From assembly GCF_016123485.1 (NCBI RefSeq), contig NZ_JADCKQ010000001.1:372001-436000 (forward strand): a stretch of 64,000 nt of DNA, in the 5' to 3' direction. Positions within the stretch are counted from its first letter, which is position 1; each line of letters begins with the position of its first letter. This DNA comes from Halocynthiibacter styelae (GTDB lineage Bacteria > Pseudomonadota > Alphaproteobacteria > Rhodobacterales > Rhodobacteraceae). This document shows, piece after piece, positions 14,392-20,612 of this stretch. The notes beneath the pieces are model-generated. The model had not been told where the DNA came from and did not search any database. It saw only the letters and a program-made list of their open reading frames with translations. The position numbers and the translations under genes are program-made.

Positions 14392-15297
14392 ATGGATTGG
14401 GATAAGTTAAGAATATTTCACGCAGTTGCAGACGCAGGCAGCCTGACACATGCAGGCGATACGTTGCATTTGTCACAATCTGCAGTGTCGCGGCAGATCC
14501 GGGCCCTGGAAGAGAGCCTGGATGCCACATTATTCCACCGTCACGCACGCGGACTGATTCTCACGGAACAGGGTGAATTGCTGTTTGACGCCACCAAAGC
14601 CATGTCCAAACGCCTTGATGCGGCCTCTGCACGCATTCGTGACAGCGATGAAGAAATGTATGGCGAGCTGCGCGTCACCACCACGCTTGGCTTTGGCCTG
14701 ATGTGGCTTGCCCCCCGCCTGCACCATTTCTATGAGAAATACCCCAACATCAAAATTGACCTGATGCTTGAGGAACGCGTGCTGGACCTGCCCATGCGCG
14801 AGGCAGACGTTGCCATTCGTATGAAAGAGCCGTCCCAGGCGGATCTGATCCGCAAACGCCTGATGAGCGTCACCATGCAGCTTTATGCAAGCCAGGGCTA
14901 TCTGGAACAGAACGGCACGCCCGCGGAACTGGCGGATCTGAAACACCACCGCCTGCTGTGTCAGCGCACAACATCCAAACAGGTCAACGCCGCCGCCAGC
15001 TTTGTGCAGCGCCTGCTGGCCTATAATGTGCCCTCTATGCTGACGGTGAACAATTACTTCGGCGTGCTTCAGGGCGTAAAACATGACCTGGGCATCGGTG
15101 TTCTGCCAGATTACGTGACACAGGACGTGCCAGACCTTGTGCCAGTGCTGCCAGATGAGAAAAGCGTCGAAGTGCCGGTCTACCTCGCCTACCCCGAAGA
15201 ATTGCGCGCTTCCAAGCGTATCTCTGCTTTCCGGGACTTTGTGCAGGAAGAGATCATCATTCACCGCAAAGGCATTCTGGTCGAACAGGCGATGTAA
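14392..15297 (+). CDS. LysR-family transcriptional regulator
   Basis: A 301-residue regulator. The N-terminal winged helix-turn-helix (about 1-60) contains H-L-S-Q-S-A-V-S-R-Q-I-R-A-L-E, the usual LysR recognition segment. An effector-binding domain follows (about 90-290). It is divergent from the fused indolepyruvate oxidoreductase and shares a 170-base intergenic region with a clear dyad, so it probably controls that gene and itself. The ligand is unknown; an aromatic amino acid or its 2-oxoacid would fit the context but is inferred. Confidence 0.92.
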   Translation: MDWDKLRIFHAVADAGSLTHAGDTLHLSQSAVSRQIRALEESLDATLFHRHARGLILTEQGELLFDATKAMSKRLDAASARIRDSDEEMYGELRVTTTLGFGLMWLAPRLHHFYEKYPNIKIDLMLEERVLDLPMREADVAIRMKEPSQADLIRKRLMSVTMQLYASQGYLEQNGTPAELADLKHHRLLCQRTTSKQVNAAASFVQRLLAYNVPSMLTVNNYFGVLQGVKHDLGIGVLPDYVTQDVPDLVPVLPDEKSVEVPVYLAYPEELRASKRISAFRDFVQEEIIIHRKGILVEQAM

Positions 15298-15413: not shown

Positions 15414-15677
15414 ATGCAGCCGAAAATTGTAATATACACCAAAGGTTACTGCCCTTACTGCAAAGCAACCAAGACGTTGCTGAACGCGAAAGGTGTCGCC
15501 TTTCTGAATCATGACATCACAAATGATCCCGATTTGCGCCGTGAAATGATCGCACGCAGCAATGGTCGAACCACCGTGCCTCAGATCTTTATTGATGATT
15601 TTCATGTGGGCGGGAACAGTGAACTGACCGCATTGGATCGGGCTGGAAAACTGAATCCTTTGCTAAACCCCGCATAG
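15414..15677 (+). CDS. grxC: glutaredoxin 3
   Basis: Small cytoplasmic dithiol glutaredoxin of 87 residues that reduces disulfides and glutathione adducts. The C-P-Y-C active site is at residues 13-16, followed by the T-V-P-Q-I-F-I cis-proline segment and V-G-G-N-S-E-L. It follows the LysR gene by 116 bases with its own upstream region, so it may be transcribed separately. Confidence 0.93.
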   Translation: MQPKIVIYTKGYCPYCKATKTLLNAKGVAFLNHDITNDPDLRREMIARSNGRTTVPQIFIDDFHVGGNSELTALDRAGKLNPLLNPA

Positions 15678-15802: not shown

Positions 15803-16141
15803 ATGAGCTGGACAAAATTCCTGAACGAGACCGTCGGTCGTATTGGCACGCTTCAAAAAGAAACCCCTGACATGTTCGCAGGCTTTACCGCGATGGGGAC
15901 CGCTGCCAAAAAACCTGGTGTTCTTGACGAGAAAACCAAAGAACTGATCGCATTGGGCATCGCTGTTTCAACCCGCTGTGACAGCTGCATTGGCTTTCAC
16001 GTCAAATCATTGGTACGCCTTAAAACCACCCGCGAAGAAATCTGTGAAGCCCTCGCAATGATCGCTTACATGGGCGGTGGCCCGTCTGTGGCCTATGGTG
16101 CCAAAGCACTGGAAGCTTATGACGAGTTTACTAAAAAATAA
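15803..16141 (+). CDS. AhpD-like carboxymuconolactone decarboxylase family protein
   Basis: A 112-residue protein of the carboxymuconolactone decarboxylase superfamily. The C-D-S-C-I-G-F-H motif (Cys59, Cys62, His66) is the redox signature of the AhpD-like alkylhydroperoxidase branch rather than the decarboxylases, which lack the cysteine pair. A role in peroxide or thiol redox chemistry follows from the family; the substrate is unknown. It stands 125 bases after grxC, another thiol redox gene. Confidence 0.85.
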   Translation: MSWTKFLNETVGRIGTLQKETPDMFAGFTAMGTAAKKPGVLDEKTKELIALGIAVSTRCDSCIGFHVKSLVRLKTTREEICEALAMIAYMGGGPSVAYGAKALEAYDEFTKK

Positions 16142-16441: not shown

Positions 16442-16470
16442 TTGATTGCATGCAGCTGCACACCTAAATC
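16442..16470 (+). promoter_or_regulatory. candidate promoter for small RNA
   Basis: TTGATT (16442-16447) and TAAATC (16465-16470) are separated by exactly 17 bases, a good housekeeping-sigma arrangement. The -35 region also reads CTTGAT, so an RpoH-type heat-shock promoter is an alternative. Transcription would begin near 16477, directly at the first hairpin of the candidate RNA. Confidence 0.45.
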
Positions 16471-16476
16471 AGTTCT

Positions 16477-16558
16477 CGAAGGCGATGGTTGATACTTATC
16501 CCATAACCTTCACCTCCCTGTTGGACTTCGCCGGGCCTTGTGCCCGGCATTTTTTTTG
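16477..16558 (+). ncRNA. candidate small RNA with single-stranded CCUCCC
   Basis: About 80 bases with the layout of a bacterial trans-acting RNA. First is a hairpin: GAAGG (16478-16482) pairs with CCTTC (16507-16511), and ATGG (16485-16488) with CCAT (16501-16504), closing a 12-base loop. An unpaired stretch with CCTCCC (16513-16518) follows, then an intrinsic terminator. The unpaired C-rich core is complementary to Shine-Dalgarno sequences and recalls the CCUCCUCCC loops of alphaproteobacterial stress RNAs (CcsR and related). It has its own promoter-like sequence and no reading frame. Expression is not shown by sequence alone. Confidence 0.5.
16530..16557 (+). terminator. intrinsic terminator
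   Basis: GCCGGGC (16530-16536) and GCCCGGC (16542-16548) form a 7-pair stem followed by A and eight T. It ends the candidate small RNA; the nearest plus-strand gene stops almost 390 bases upstream. Confidence 0.85.
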
Positions 16559-16575
16559 CCTGCACGAAACTTCAC

Positions 16576-18240
16576 TCAATGCGCTGACATATCCGGAAAT
16601 GTATATACGCCAAATGAACTGTGTGGCACCGGGACTTCACGCAATACGGCATCGCAGGCAAGGTCCAGCCGTCGCGCCAGATCACGCAGAAAAGCTGCCT
16701 TCCAACGTCGGGTTTCTCTGCCCGGTTCCGGGGCATAGCTTTCAATAAACTCCAATGCGGCAGACACATCCTGTTTTAGCAAAAGTTGCTCTGCGTAAAT
16801 TTTTGCCTGCGCCAGGGGCATTTCCGCGCCCTCTTCCTGCTCTCCTGCAATCTGTTGCGCAGTTGCCGTCCACAGGTCCCAATCAAACCCGGCACTGATC
16901 CCCTCGGGTCGCAAAACAGGCACTTCCCCATTCCCTTTCAGATAGTCCACACTGATGGCACGCGCCTGCACCCAGTCAAACAGATCAAAAAAACCTCCCT
17001 CACCTTGCAGAAAATGACCCAGAACAGGGGGCACCTGCATAGAAGACAGGATCTCTTCAAGCTGTGTGGTCCATTCATGTGCGTCCGGTTCGGCAGTCAT
17101 TCCGAGGACTTCAATGTACTTTTGGTCATCAGGATAAAAATGCAGATATTCTTCGCGTGTCAGACCTGAACGAAGAATATCCCAGGCATGCAACCAAACC
17201 GCATCGCTGTTGGCACGCATATTGATCTGCCCACTCTCAAATCCGGCCTGCATCTCGCGGAAAAAATGCACGTTCAGTTGATGAGGGCTACCGGAATTTG
17301 TTAACAGCGTCACAAGCCCTGAATAATGCATGGCGTTTTGTACGGTAATCGAGCTTCTGACGGCGTGATTTACGTTATATCTCTCATCCTCATAGGCCTC
17401 CCGAAACTCCTGAAAGGATCCATCCGGATTGTAAACGACAGCCTTATCGAAGATGTCATACCCACTGGTCACACGCAGACTGATCAGAGGCCACAATACA
17501 CCATCATCCAGAATACCTTCGCTGATAGGGCCCCACAGGGCATCTTTTGAATGCCGGGAAATCAGCGCCTCTATCGGTGCTGTATCTTCAACTGTCGCCA
17601 GTACCGCGACCGCCAGGCGATAAAATCCCGCCGCTTCTGCGTCTTCGGCGAACTGCAACCGGAATGTTTCATCCTGATCCAACAGCACACTGGCAAACTG
17701 ACGCCCCATAAGCCGGTCAAACCATACACTTCGCTGCGTATCGCTCTGCGCGATCAACCCGCGCATCAGATCGAAAAAACGCTGGTTACCCTCTGTCAGG
17801 ATGACGGCGCGCCCCAGGTCCAGCGGGGCTTCTGTCATCGCCTGCTCTGCATCCACATCATTCAAAAGCAAAGTTGCGTTCAGCCCTATCGCGGTGGTCG
17901 CCATGCTATATTGAATATTTTTCACCCGGGAATCCCGGTGGTCCGGTCGGCTGGTCAGTTCTTCCAGAAAATCGCGCGCACCAGCACCCGCGTTTTCCCA
18001 GGGCATGTTCTCATAACGGATCTTCAGATAGGCAGCGTCAGCAACCTGGCGACGGTAAAATCGCGGCCCCTGAGGTTCAGCCAGTGTCATATCTACCGTT
18101 TCCAGAAGCATCATACGATCGCATTGCAAAGGTGGTGCAGCACGGGTCTCTGCGATTCCACTTGCGGGATACAAAACACAAAGCGCCCCGCTCAAAACAA
18201 TTACAGCCTGTGAAATGAAACGCGGCAAAATACACGTCAT
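16576..18240 (-). CDS. unrecognised secreted protein
   Basis: A 554-residue protein with a signal peptide (hydrophobic about 10-30, cleavage after the A-E-T region near 31). The mature part is acidic and mostly helical, with no catalytic motif or repeat that I can name. Cysteines are few (in the signal region, Cys40 and one near the C terminus). A periplasmic location is likely. It is a single gene, convergent with the candidate small RNA and divergent from purL. Its length and even composition argue for a real conserved gene. Confidence 0.75.
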   Translation of the reverse strand: MTCILPRFISQAVIVLSGALCVLYPASGIAETRAAPPLQCDRMMLLETVDMTLAEPQGPRFYRRQVADAAYLKIRYENMPWENAGAGARDFLEELTSRPDHRDSRVKNIQYSMATTAIGLNATLLLNDVDAEQAMTEAPLDLGRAVILTEGNQRFFDLMRGLIAQSDTQRSVWFDRLMGRQFASVLLDQDETFRLQFAEDAEAAGFYRLAVAVLATVEDTAPIEALISRHSKDALWGPISEGILDDGVLWPLISLRVTSGYDIFDKAVVYNPDGSFQEFREAYEDERYNVNHAVRSSITVQNAMHYSGLVTLLTNSGSPHQLNVHFFREMQAGFESGQINMRANSDAVWLHAWDILRSGLTREEYLHFYPDDQKYIEVLGMTAEPDAHEWTTQLEEILSSMQVPPVLGHFLQGEGGFFDLFDWVQARAISVDYLKGNGEVPVLRPEGISAGFDWDLWTATAQQIAGEQEEGAEMPLAQAKIYAEQLLLKQDVSAALEFIESYAPEPGRETRRWKAAFLRDLARRLDLACDAVLREVPVPHSSFGVYTFPDMSAH

Positions 18241-18440: not shown

Positions 18441-20612
18441 ATGCAAGAGCCCGCCATCACCGAAGATCTGATTGCCTCCCACGGGTTCACACCCGATGAA
18501 TATGCGGAAGTGAAAAACATTCTGGGCCGCGAGCCGAACTATACCGAGATGGGTATTTTCTCTGCGATGTGGAACGAGCATTGCTCATACAAATCTTCCA
18601 AGAAATGGCTACGCACCCTGCCGACAGAAGGCCCGCAAGTGATCTGTGGCCCAGGAGAGAATGCCGGTATCGTTGATATTGGTGACGGTCAGGCCGTTGT
18701 TTTCAAAATGGAAAGCCACAACCACCCGTCCTACATCGAACCCTATCAGGGCGCGGCCACCGGCGTTGGCGGCATTCTGCGTGATGTGTTCACCATGGGC
18801 GCACGCCCTATTGCGTCTATGAACGCGCTGTCCTTTGGCGAACCTTCTCACCACAAGACCACACAGCTGGTCAACGGCGTGGTTGAAGGCGTTGGCGGCT
18901 ACGGCAATTGTTTCGGTGTCCCTTGTGTTGGTGGCGAAGTGCGTTTCCATCCGGCCTATAACGGCAACTGCCTTGTGAACGCTTTTGCGGCTGGCCTGGC
19001 TGATGCGGATAAAATCTTCTACTCTGCCGCCTCCGGCGTCGGCATGCCTGTTGTCTATCTTGGCGCAAAAACCGGCCGTGACGGTGTTGGTGGCGCAACC
19101 ATGGCGTCTGCTGAATTCGACGACACGATTGAAGAAAAACGCCCCACCGTTCAGGTTGGTGACCCGTTCACCGAAAAACGCCTGATGGAAGCGACGCTTG
19201 AGCTGATGGCAACCGGTGCTGTGATCTCAATCCAAGATATGGGCGCCGCTGGCCTGACCTGTTCCGCCGTTGAAATGGGCGACAAAGGCGGCCTTGGCGT
19301 CAAGCTGAACCTTGAAGACGTGCCACAGCGCGAAGAGAATATGACTGCGTATGAAATGATGCTGTCTGAATCTCAGGAACGTATGCTGATGGTTCTGAAA
19401 CCGGAACTGGAAGAAGAAGCCCGCGCGGTTTTCGTGAAATGGGATCTTGATTTCGCCATCGTCGGCGAAACGATTGAAGAAGACCGCTTCCTGATCATGC
19501 ACAACGGCGAAATGAAAGCCGACCTGCCCCTGTCCAAACTGTCATCCACTGCACCTGAATATGACCGCCCATGGGTGGAAACCCCGGCTGCAGAAGCTAT
19601 GGACGATGTTCCGGAAATCGACGCAATTGACGCTTTGCGCGCCCTGATTTCCTCGCCAAACTACGCGGGCAAACAGTGGGTCTATGAGCAATACGACACA
19701 TCCGTTATGGGTGACTCTGTGCAGACACCAGGTCTTGGTGCCGGCGTGATCCGCGTGCATGGCACCGATAAACTGCTGGCGTTCACCTCTGACGTGACCC
19801 CGCGCTATGTGAAAGCCAACCCGGTTGAGGGTGGCAAACAGGCGGTGGCCGAAGCCTTCCGCAACCTCTGTTCTGTTGGTGCCAAACCACTGGCGACCAC
19901 CGACAATATGAACTTCGGCAACCCGGAAAAGCCCGAAATCATGGGCCAGTTCGTTGGTGCGATCAAGGGCATCGGCGCGGCGGTTTCCGCGCTTGATATG
20001 CCAATCGTTTCCGGCAACGTATCGCTTTACAATGAAACCGACGGTCAGGCGATCCTGCCGACACCAACCATCGGTGCTGTTGGTCTGATTGATCACGCCG
20101 ATGATCTGATTGCCGGTGAAGTGCGCGACGGCCATGTGGCGATTGTCATTGGCGCAAGCCAGCATGAGGTCGGTTCCCACCTTGGCCAATCCGCCCTGCT
20201 GGCCGAAGTTTTCAACCGCGAAGATGGCGACGCGCCTGCCGTTGATCTGGATGCGGAACTGAAAGCTGGTCTCTTCATTCGCGAAAACCGCGAGATGATC
20301 CGCGCCTGTTCTGATCTGTCCGACGGTGGCCTTGCGCTGGCAGCCTTTGAAATGGCGGAAACCGCTGGTGTTGGTGTATCTCTTGACCCAACCACTACTG
20401 CAGAACTTTATGGCGAAGATCAGGGCCGCTACCTGGTGGCCTGTAACTTTGACCAGGCCGAAGCCCTGTTCATCGCTGCTGGTCAGGCCGGTGTGCCTGT
20501 GGCTTCCGTCGGCAGCTTTGGCGGCGACAGTGTGACCATGGGCGGCAACAGCGCAGATCTGGCGGAACTCTCTGCGATCTATCGCACAGGCTTTGCCGAC
20601 GCCGTCGCCTGA
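18441..20612 (+). CDS. purL: phosphoribosylformylglycinamidine synthase subunit PurL
   Basis: Large subunit of the fourth step of purine synthesis: ATP-dependent conversion of FGAR to FGAM, working with PurQ and PurS. The 723-residue length is that of the small-type PurL, not the fused enteric enzyme. Visible landmarks are N-E-H-C-S-Y-K-S-S near residue 34, the K-M-E-S-H-N-H-P-S motif near 90 and the repeated AIRS-synthase-like domains with P-T-P-T-I-G near 530. It overlaps the next gene by 1 base. purM and purN are also in this window, but 37 kb away. Confidence 0.97.

Follow-up and report, generated by a model that had tools for sequence, protein, structure and literature searches.

A SorY-type small RNA of Halocynthiibacter styelae and a conserved complementary RNA, a probable sponge for the core common to Sor RNAs

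The small RNA locus and its neighborhood

The window analyzed here is the whole 64-kb stretch of DNA, positions 372001-436000 of contig C1 in its source genome (G000:C1:372001-436000). A small RNA is predicted in it between the genes of a LysR-family regulator and PurL, on the same strand as both (Table 1). An earlier sequence-only reading of this DNA had proposed an RNA of some 80 bases that has its own promoter and consists of a structured head, an anti-Shine-Dalgarno core left unpaired and an intrinsic terminator; our analysis of the sequence bears this out. The promoter boxes TTGATT (16443-16448) and TAAATC (16465-16470) stand as given there, but direct reading yields a spacer of 16 nt and not 17, and the start had been placed one base early. 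These boxes fail a sigma-70 consensus scan of the window, and fit the RpoH-type consensus. The head hairpin is recovered by folding as proposed, while CCTCCC (16513-16518), the terminator stem (16530-16548) and the run of eight T (16550-16557) are read directly from the sequence, also in agreement with the earlier proposal.

Table 1. Genes and predicted RNA features at the focal locus (window positions).
Feature	Position	Strand	Basis
LysR-family regulator, upstream SorY synteny marker	14392-15297	+	PF03466, PF00126
Glutaredoxin, between LysR and the RNA in this lineage	15414-15677	+	PF00462
Carboxymuconolactone decarboxylase (CMD, AhpD-like) family protein	15803-16141	+	PF02627
Predicted RpoH-type promoter (CTTG 16442-16445, CCTAAAT 16463-16469)	16442-16469	+	Sequence and conservation
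Predicted SorY-type small RNA, ~81 nt	16476-16556	+	Start predicted by alignment with the mapped R. sphaeroides SorY start
Head hairpin	16478-16511	+	Present in MFE and centroid folds
Core CUCCCUGUUGGACU, anti-Shine-Dalgarno seed and predicted sponge-pairing site	16514-16527	+	Near-identity of SorY-type 14-mers
Intrinsic terminator, 7 G-C pairs and 8 T	16530-16557	+	Sequence, fold, terminator scan
554-aa reading frame, convergent with the RNA, no Pfam match	16576-18240	-	ORF list, Pfam
purL, downstream SorY synteny marker	18441-20612	+	PF00586, PF02769, PF18072

The focal RNA folds with z = -2.72, two of 200 shuffled sequences folding equally well. Terminator-like sites are not above chance when taken alone (one found, 2.3 expected), and the focal element exceeds chance as a whole because of the E-value of its Rfam SorX match (1.7e-10 in the 64-kb window) and because its parts recur in orthologs. 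Single sites of this kind being common, and the CMD gene lying about 330 bases upstream on the same strand, the region might be read as a mere terminator of that gene with no regulatory RNA; we find this hardly credible, as the promoter, head and core are kept at loci showing no CMD gene. A mechanically called frame with a TTG start (16446-16748) crosses the focal region and was not taken for a gene.

Among the loci compared, glutaredoxin and CMD genes are present at Sor loci only in G000 and its congener G002. Elsewhere in the window, Rfam matches are observed to the cis-regulatory COG3860 RNA (RF02940; 428-480, 56.6 bits) and to a tRNA gene (RF00005; 60610-60683).

Assignment of the RNA to SorY

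Two Rfam models describe the focal RNA. The SorX model (RF02784) scores 54.6 bits at 16471-16555, above its cut-off of 46.6, and the SorY model (RF02651) scores 35.9 bits at 16479-16556, below its cut-off of 111. Thus, an RNA that the sequence-only reading had regarded as possibly new falls into a known class, and its arrangement of hairpin, CCUCCC core and terminator, thought there to be unusual, is the layout of SorX and SorY. Sub-cut-off Rfam matches at the same place (mmgR, anti-hemB and others) were taken as chance hits via the C-rich core and the terminator.

The choice between the two names is decided by position. In genome G077 the SorY model scores 115 bits at C4:1632645 and the SorX model 88.8 bits at C4:2598225-2598299, which coincides with the published R. 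sphaeroides 5' ends of SorY (1,632,642) and of the 75-nt SorX (2,598,224) (PMC6238624), and so G077 was identified as R. sphaeroides 2.4.1. SorY of G077 sits between LysR and PurL, and since the focal RNA is placed in the same way, we conclude from sequence and synteny that the RNA at 16476-16556 is the SorY ortholog. The two loci further agree in the head hairpin, the identical CUCCCUGUUGGACUU core, the terminator, and an RpoHI/RpoHII-type promoter of the same length (L079 in R. sphaeroides), as judged by sequence and conservation; they differ in the diverged head of the focal RNA, in the glutaredoxin and CMD genes upstream and in the 554-aa frame downstream. It is due to the diverged head that the focal RNA misses the strict SorY cut-off, which is reached by just one of 295 family genomes; given this and the score of 35.9 bits, we name it an ortholog of SorY and do not count it among the members of RF02651 in its curated form.

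As the SorX model does exceed its gathering score here, one could suppose that the focal RNA is SorX, a product of RNase E cleavage in the 3' UTR of an mRNA encoded upstream. In R. sphaeroides, SorX is cut from the ompR-1 3' UTR (PMC6238624), whereas the gene upstream of the focal RNA is of the CMD family, and the focal locus has the SorY neighbors and a conserved promoter of its own. Moreover, the SorX model matches three places in G000 (C3:44339-44409, the focal locus and C1:351397-351449), the first of which scores better (63.5 bits) and lies directly behind an OmpR-type response regulator gene (PF00072, PF00486), that is, in the published context. The focal RNA and SorX have the core and the terminator half in common, and because this 3' half is shared, the SorX label on the focal RNA is explained as a cross-match. 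Assignment to SorX by the Rfam label was therefore ruled out by synteny, and we consider it very improbable.

CcsR RNAs were named for comparison in the sequence-only reading, and a placement of the focal RNA nearest to them is not supported. CcsR1-4 have a C-rich motif, which lies in hairpin loops. They are RpoH-controlled stress RNAs, as is predicted for the focal RNA, but derive from the 3' UTR of ccaF1 in R. sphaeroides (PMC8625941, PMC8307010), where they form a cluster, while the focal RNA is present in one copy behind LysR, glutaredoxin and CMD genes. Beyond the common CCUCCC-type motif, which speaks for a CcsR-type RNA or a new class, the SorX and SorY models match over the whole length and the locus is that of SorY, so that CcsR-type identity was rejected and either version of this assignment seems extremely unlikely to us.

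For analysis of conservation, we gathered 68 SorY-type loci by the core together with LysR or PurL on the strand of the RNA. A LysR relative is present in 67 and PurL in 38 of the 68 stretches (about 1.5 kb on each side), both genes having served as the selection criterion. Sixty loci were counted, after leaving out deviant family members (L036, L257, L260), loci from other families (L060, L062, L075), a locus cut short (L064) and the second copy in L042. The promoter pattern CTTG-N-C[ACT][TA]ANNT is found at 45 of these loci and is absent from 15, compared to a mean of 0.76 and a maximum of 4 in 200 shuffles. Head hairpins fold better from their own halves (mean -15.7 kcal/mol) than as chimeras (-10.1 kcal/mol; nominal P = 1.7e-22, which is inexact, as all 1185 chimeras were assembled from one set of 60 heads), and hence the two halves change together. 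Eighty-three of 85 SorY-type 14-mer cores are identical, although only the middle bases are informative, the 14-mers having been chosen by CTCCCTG and the ending A[CA][CT], mostly via Sor models. The hairpin and core proposed from this single sequence thus prove to be conserved among relatives, with covarying hairpin halves. The SorY model matches 279 of the 295 family genomes, some of these matches possibly being cross-matches to SorX.

Tandem Sor-type RNAs are observed at three loci, two behind OmpR (L017, L022) and one at a SorY locus (L042). Sor-like RNAs (CCTCCCTGTTTGACT and variants) are also present in four genomes of other alphaproteobacterial families (L059, L060, L062, L075), near a LysR relative in L060, L062 and L075, and the hairpin ACGTCT..AGACGT is common to L060 and L062.

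A common core and an RNA complementary to it

One core is common to SorX, SorY and a third Sor-type RNA beside ialB, located in G000 at C1:351397-351449 (L003:1501-1553), near genes of an IalB-family protein (PF06776) and a "fabF-like" ketoacyl synthase (PF02801). In our comparison of cores the third copy is more variable than SorY. Of three species compared in the window's genus, two (L001, that is G000, and L028, that is G002) have a SorX whose core has changed by drift to CTCCCTTATGGACT, while the SorY core is kept.

A search of G000 for complements of the core with at most one mismatch yielded 20 sites, compared to 22 in the backwards control; as there is no enrichment, no mRNA target was taken from it. 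Exact matches are just two, the focal RNA's own complement and a site at C1:351576, which follows the third copy at a distance of about 160 bases. The latter belongs to a candidate sponge-like RNA at C1:351565-351630 (L003:1670-1735), a unit of TTGACC, a -10 box, AGTCGGCCAGTCCGACAGGGAG and a terminator. This RNA is the new element of the present analysis, and lies outside the window and outside the region covered by the sequence-only reading.

A similar element was seen by eye behind the third copy at all 11 loci examined. The covariance model R1, built from 10 third-copy loci with the promoter outside the model, matches 266 of the 295 family genomes at E <= 0.001, and 247 at 5.6e-7 or better. 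In R. sphaeroides the sponge-like RNA is predicted on the minus strand at G077:C4:1426526-1426596 (L163), between the ketoacyl-synthase and IalB-family genes. An exact 21-mer occurs in at least 119 stretches of named genomes; the 80 titles listed are nearly all Rhodobacterales, with Ruegeria, Roseovarius, Shimia, Jannaschia, Leisingera, Tritonibacter and other genera, as well as two vague metagenome labels and one Maritalea, among the matches listed. No Rfam family corresponds to the element, the matches listed for these loci at E up to 0.1 being Sor RNAs and one chance family, none of which falls on the sponge-like RNA.

The sequence is consistent with an independent transcript having its own promoter and terminator. 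At the 30 best-scoring R1 loci, which are not a random draw, TTGACN-N17/18-TANNNT is present just upstream in all 30 (N17 in 28, N18 in two; 0.1 in shuffles), and a T-run follows GGGAG within 75 bases in 28.

Outside the family, R1 gave 28 matches over 289 genomes of the class, four of which are in the family and the other 24 weak (best 38 bits, E 1.0e-6). In the four non-family genomes with Sor-like RNAs, the promoter-plus-core pattern gave five matches versus four in the control, and no sponge-like element was found; the match in G041 is the complement of its own Sor-like RNA. Within the family, we picked 30 genomes with absent or weak R1 matches and read their ketoacyl-synthase locus and Sor matches, drawing no statistic. 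The sponge was found by pattern or by eye in nine of them (G006, G083, G127, G176, G188, G229, G258, G279, G291). Eight have no SorX-model match (E <= 0.01), and in these R1 has no match in six and a weak one in two. Eight more have a Sor-type match, weak in some cases, and no sponge was found at the places read (G003, G010, G016, G019, G025, G135, G198, G220); in G010 and G220 a Sor-like RNA lies near an ialB-like gene, with no sponge in the next 215 bases.

Pairing was tabulated for 103 genomes, in 80 of which the sponge was read; in the other 23 its place was mostly not fetched, and in the rest the sponge is absent or missed by the pattern. The 14-mers were scored in a fixed register with no gaps, and third copies with a deletion therefore score lower. 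In 55 of 63 genomes the sponge is complementary to SorY at all 14 positions, and at 13 in the remaining eight. With SorX, 14 pairs are formed in 11 of 19 genomes, 13 in six and 12 in two; in two species of the window's genus the drifted SorX core makes 12 of 14 pairs. With the neighboring third copy, full pairing is observed in only nine of 65 genomes, 13 pairs in 43 and fewer in 13. The reversed control gives 4.2 pairs of 14. Where SorY, the third copy and the sponge could all be compared (50 genomes with the full set of three), pairing with SorY is better than with the neighbor in 40, equal in 10 and worse in none. As pairing with SorY and SorX is fuller than with the neighbor, these counts suggest that the sponge sequence is held by SorY and SorX.

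Energies agree with pairing of the focal SorY (ddG -19.8 kcal/mol, with a mean of -7.3 for shuffled sponges and 0/300 as low) and, to a lesser degree, of the drifted SorX of G000 (-15.9; 5/300). Trans covariation is thin because the core is nearly invariant. In G229 a change is compensated, SorX and the third copy reading GAAC and the sponge GTTC, with SorY staying GGAC and pairing by G-U; G127 has the same compensated change in the third copy and the sponge. Compensation is partial in G006 and missing in G188, and with too few variants and this counter-example, trans covariation was not retained as the main proof of pairing.

Taken together, the complementarity and its conservation make this RNA probably a sponge for SorY and SorX, with pairing in the cell and the direction of the effect being predicted. 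An alternative that we consider unlikely is that it is no decoy of SorX and SorY, and has its own functions, or antagonizes the third copy only, or is an attenuated ialB leader under Sor control. The sponge pattern is present at 46 of 50 loci, and a core-like match lies 101-218 bases upstream in 41 of these 46 (three doubtful), which speaks for this alternative; the third copy also pairs with the sponge energetically as well as SorY does (ddG -20.3; 0/300 shuffles as good). Full complementarity in the fixed ungapped register is nevertheless kept to SorY rather than to the neighbor. As for a leader, AGGGAG of the sponge resembles a Shine-Dalgarno sequence, yet ATG or GTG follows it at 4-10 nt in only four of 30 loci, the element has the promoter and T-run frequencies given above, and in G000 and R. 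sphaeroides about 100 bases or more separate the end of its terminator from ialB.

Neither a sponge of SorX or SorY nor a seed common to the two is mentioned in the accessible text of the literature searched (including PMC6238624, PMC8625941, PMC8307010, PMC9438474, PMC7074977, PMC5036791, PMC7866481, PMC3688512, PMC5089854, PMC5107571, PMC10503654 and PMC13414033), a scope that excludes the primary SorX and SorY papers. The second small RNA is apparently undescribed, and may already appear as a numbered entry in an RNA-seq list.

Proposed control by the sponge, and core matches in viral contigs

We hold with high confidence the joint reading, based on sequence, that the focal RNA is a SorY ortholog driven by an RpoH-type promoter and that the conserved complementary RNA is most likely a sponge for the common core. 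SorY of R. sphaeroides depends on RpoHI/RpoHII, is induced by singlet oxygen and binds Hfq (PMC8307010, PMC5036791), and takP mRNA is its target (PMC6238624). By analogy with R. sphaeroides, RpoH-type stress sigma factors would transcribe the focal RNA (~80 nt) from its own promoter, the head hairpin and terminator would protect its ends, and the exposed core would bind, probably together with Hfq, to the Shine-Dalgarno regions of its mRNA targets, as for SorY. Given the takP target of SorY, uptake and metabolic flux may be lowered in this way under oxidative stress. The sponge promoter is of housekeeping type and the SorY promoter of stress type, which suggests a threshold device: the sponge would set the level which Sor RNAs induced by stress have to surpass, being in excess of them at rest and exceeded by them under stress.

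Sponge RNAs titrating small RNAs are a known kind. In R. sphaeroides, StsR binds the RNA UpsM (PMC8307010), and the candidate resembles it in its predicted role of binding other small RNAs; by description, it differs from StsR and known sponges in its predicted pairing with one seed common to three RNAs.

The Sor core followed by a T-run was also found in 36 viral contigs (L449-L484; e.g., L464:2284-2330), in which none of nine host marker proteins was detected on the sequence examined. In 19 of the 36 contigs the core lies 26-42 bases behind the major capsid gene (PHROG 371); since some of these contigs nearly duplicate one another, the independent cases are fewer. Other contigs have the core in unrelated contexts; in L456 and L469 the opposite strand reads like a gene start, and the matches in L453, L473, L456 and L469 may be due to chance. 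Looser forms of the core, CTCTCGTTGGGTT and CCTCTCTGTTGGGTT, occupy this position after the capsid gene in Roseobacter phages CRP-901 and CRP-902, and no core is present there in Pelagibacter phages HTVC023P and HTVC027P, Caulobacter phage GB2A and phage DSL-LC04, which have related capsid genes. In its capsid protein, L464 resembles DSL-LC04 (74%) and HTVC023P (73%) more than CRP-901/902 (57-58%), which counts against a simple roseophage reading. The sponge sequence has no match in the viral contigs. A wider reading, which we offer tentatively and at slightly less than even confidence, somewhat lowered in view of the capsid protein being nearer to that of a Pelagibacter phage than to those of Roseobacter phages, is a two-sided switch, in which three RNAs with one seed are set against a dedicated, constitutive, family-wide sponge, and phages, perhaps of this clade, carry the seed after their capsid gene and, on infection, either soak up the sponge or imitate the Sor RNAs.

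The correction of the label from SorX to SorY is of use beyond this genome, as Rfam-based annotation would spread the SorX label through the family, and SorX and SorY, studied apart, turn out to have one common seed. If the complementary RNA is a sponge, R. sphaeroides, a model of the singlet-oxygen response, would have, at a defined position, an unexamined brake on its stress RNAs; what has been found in strains deleted for SorX or SorY would then have to be interpreted in view of a free sponge pool. If phage transcripts do carry the common seed, this would be a contact point between stress control and infection.
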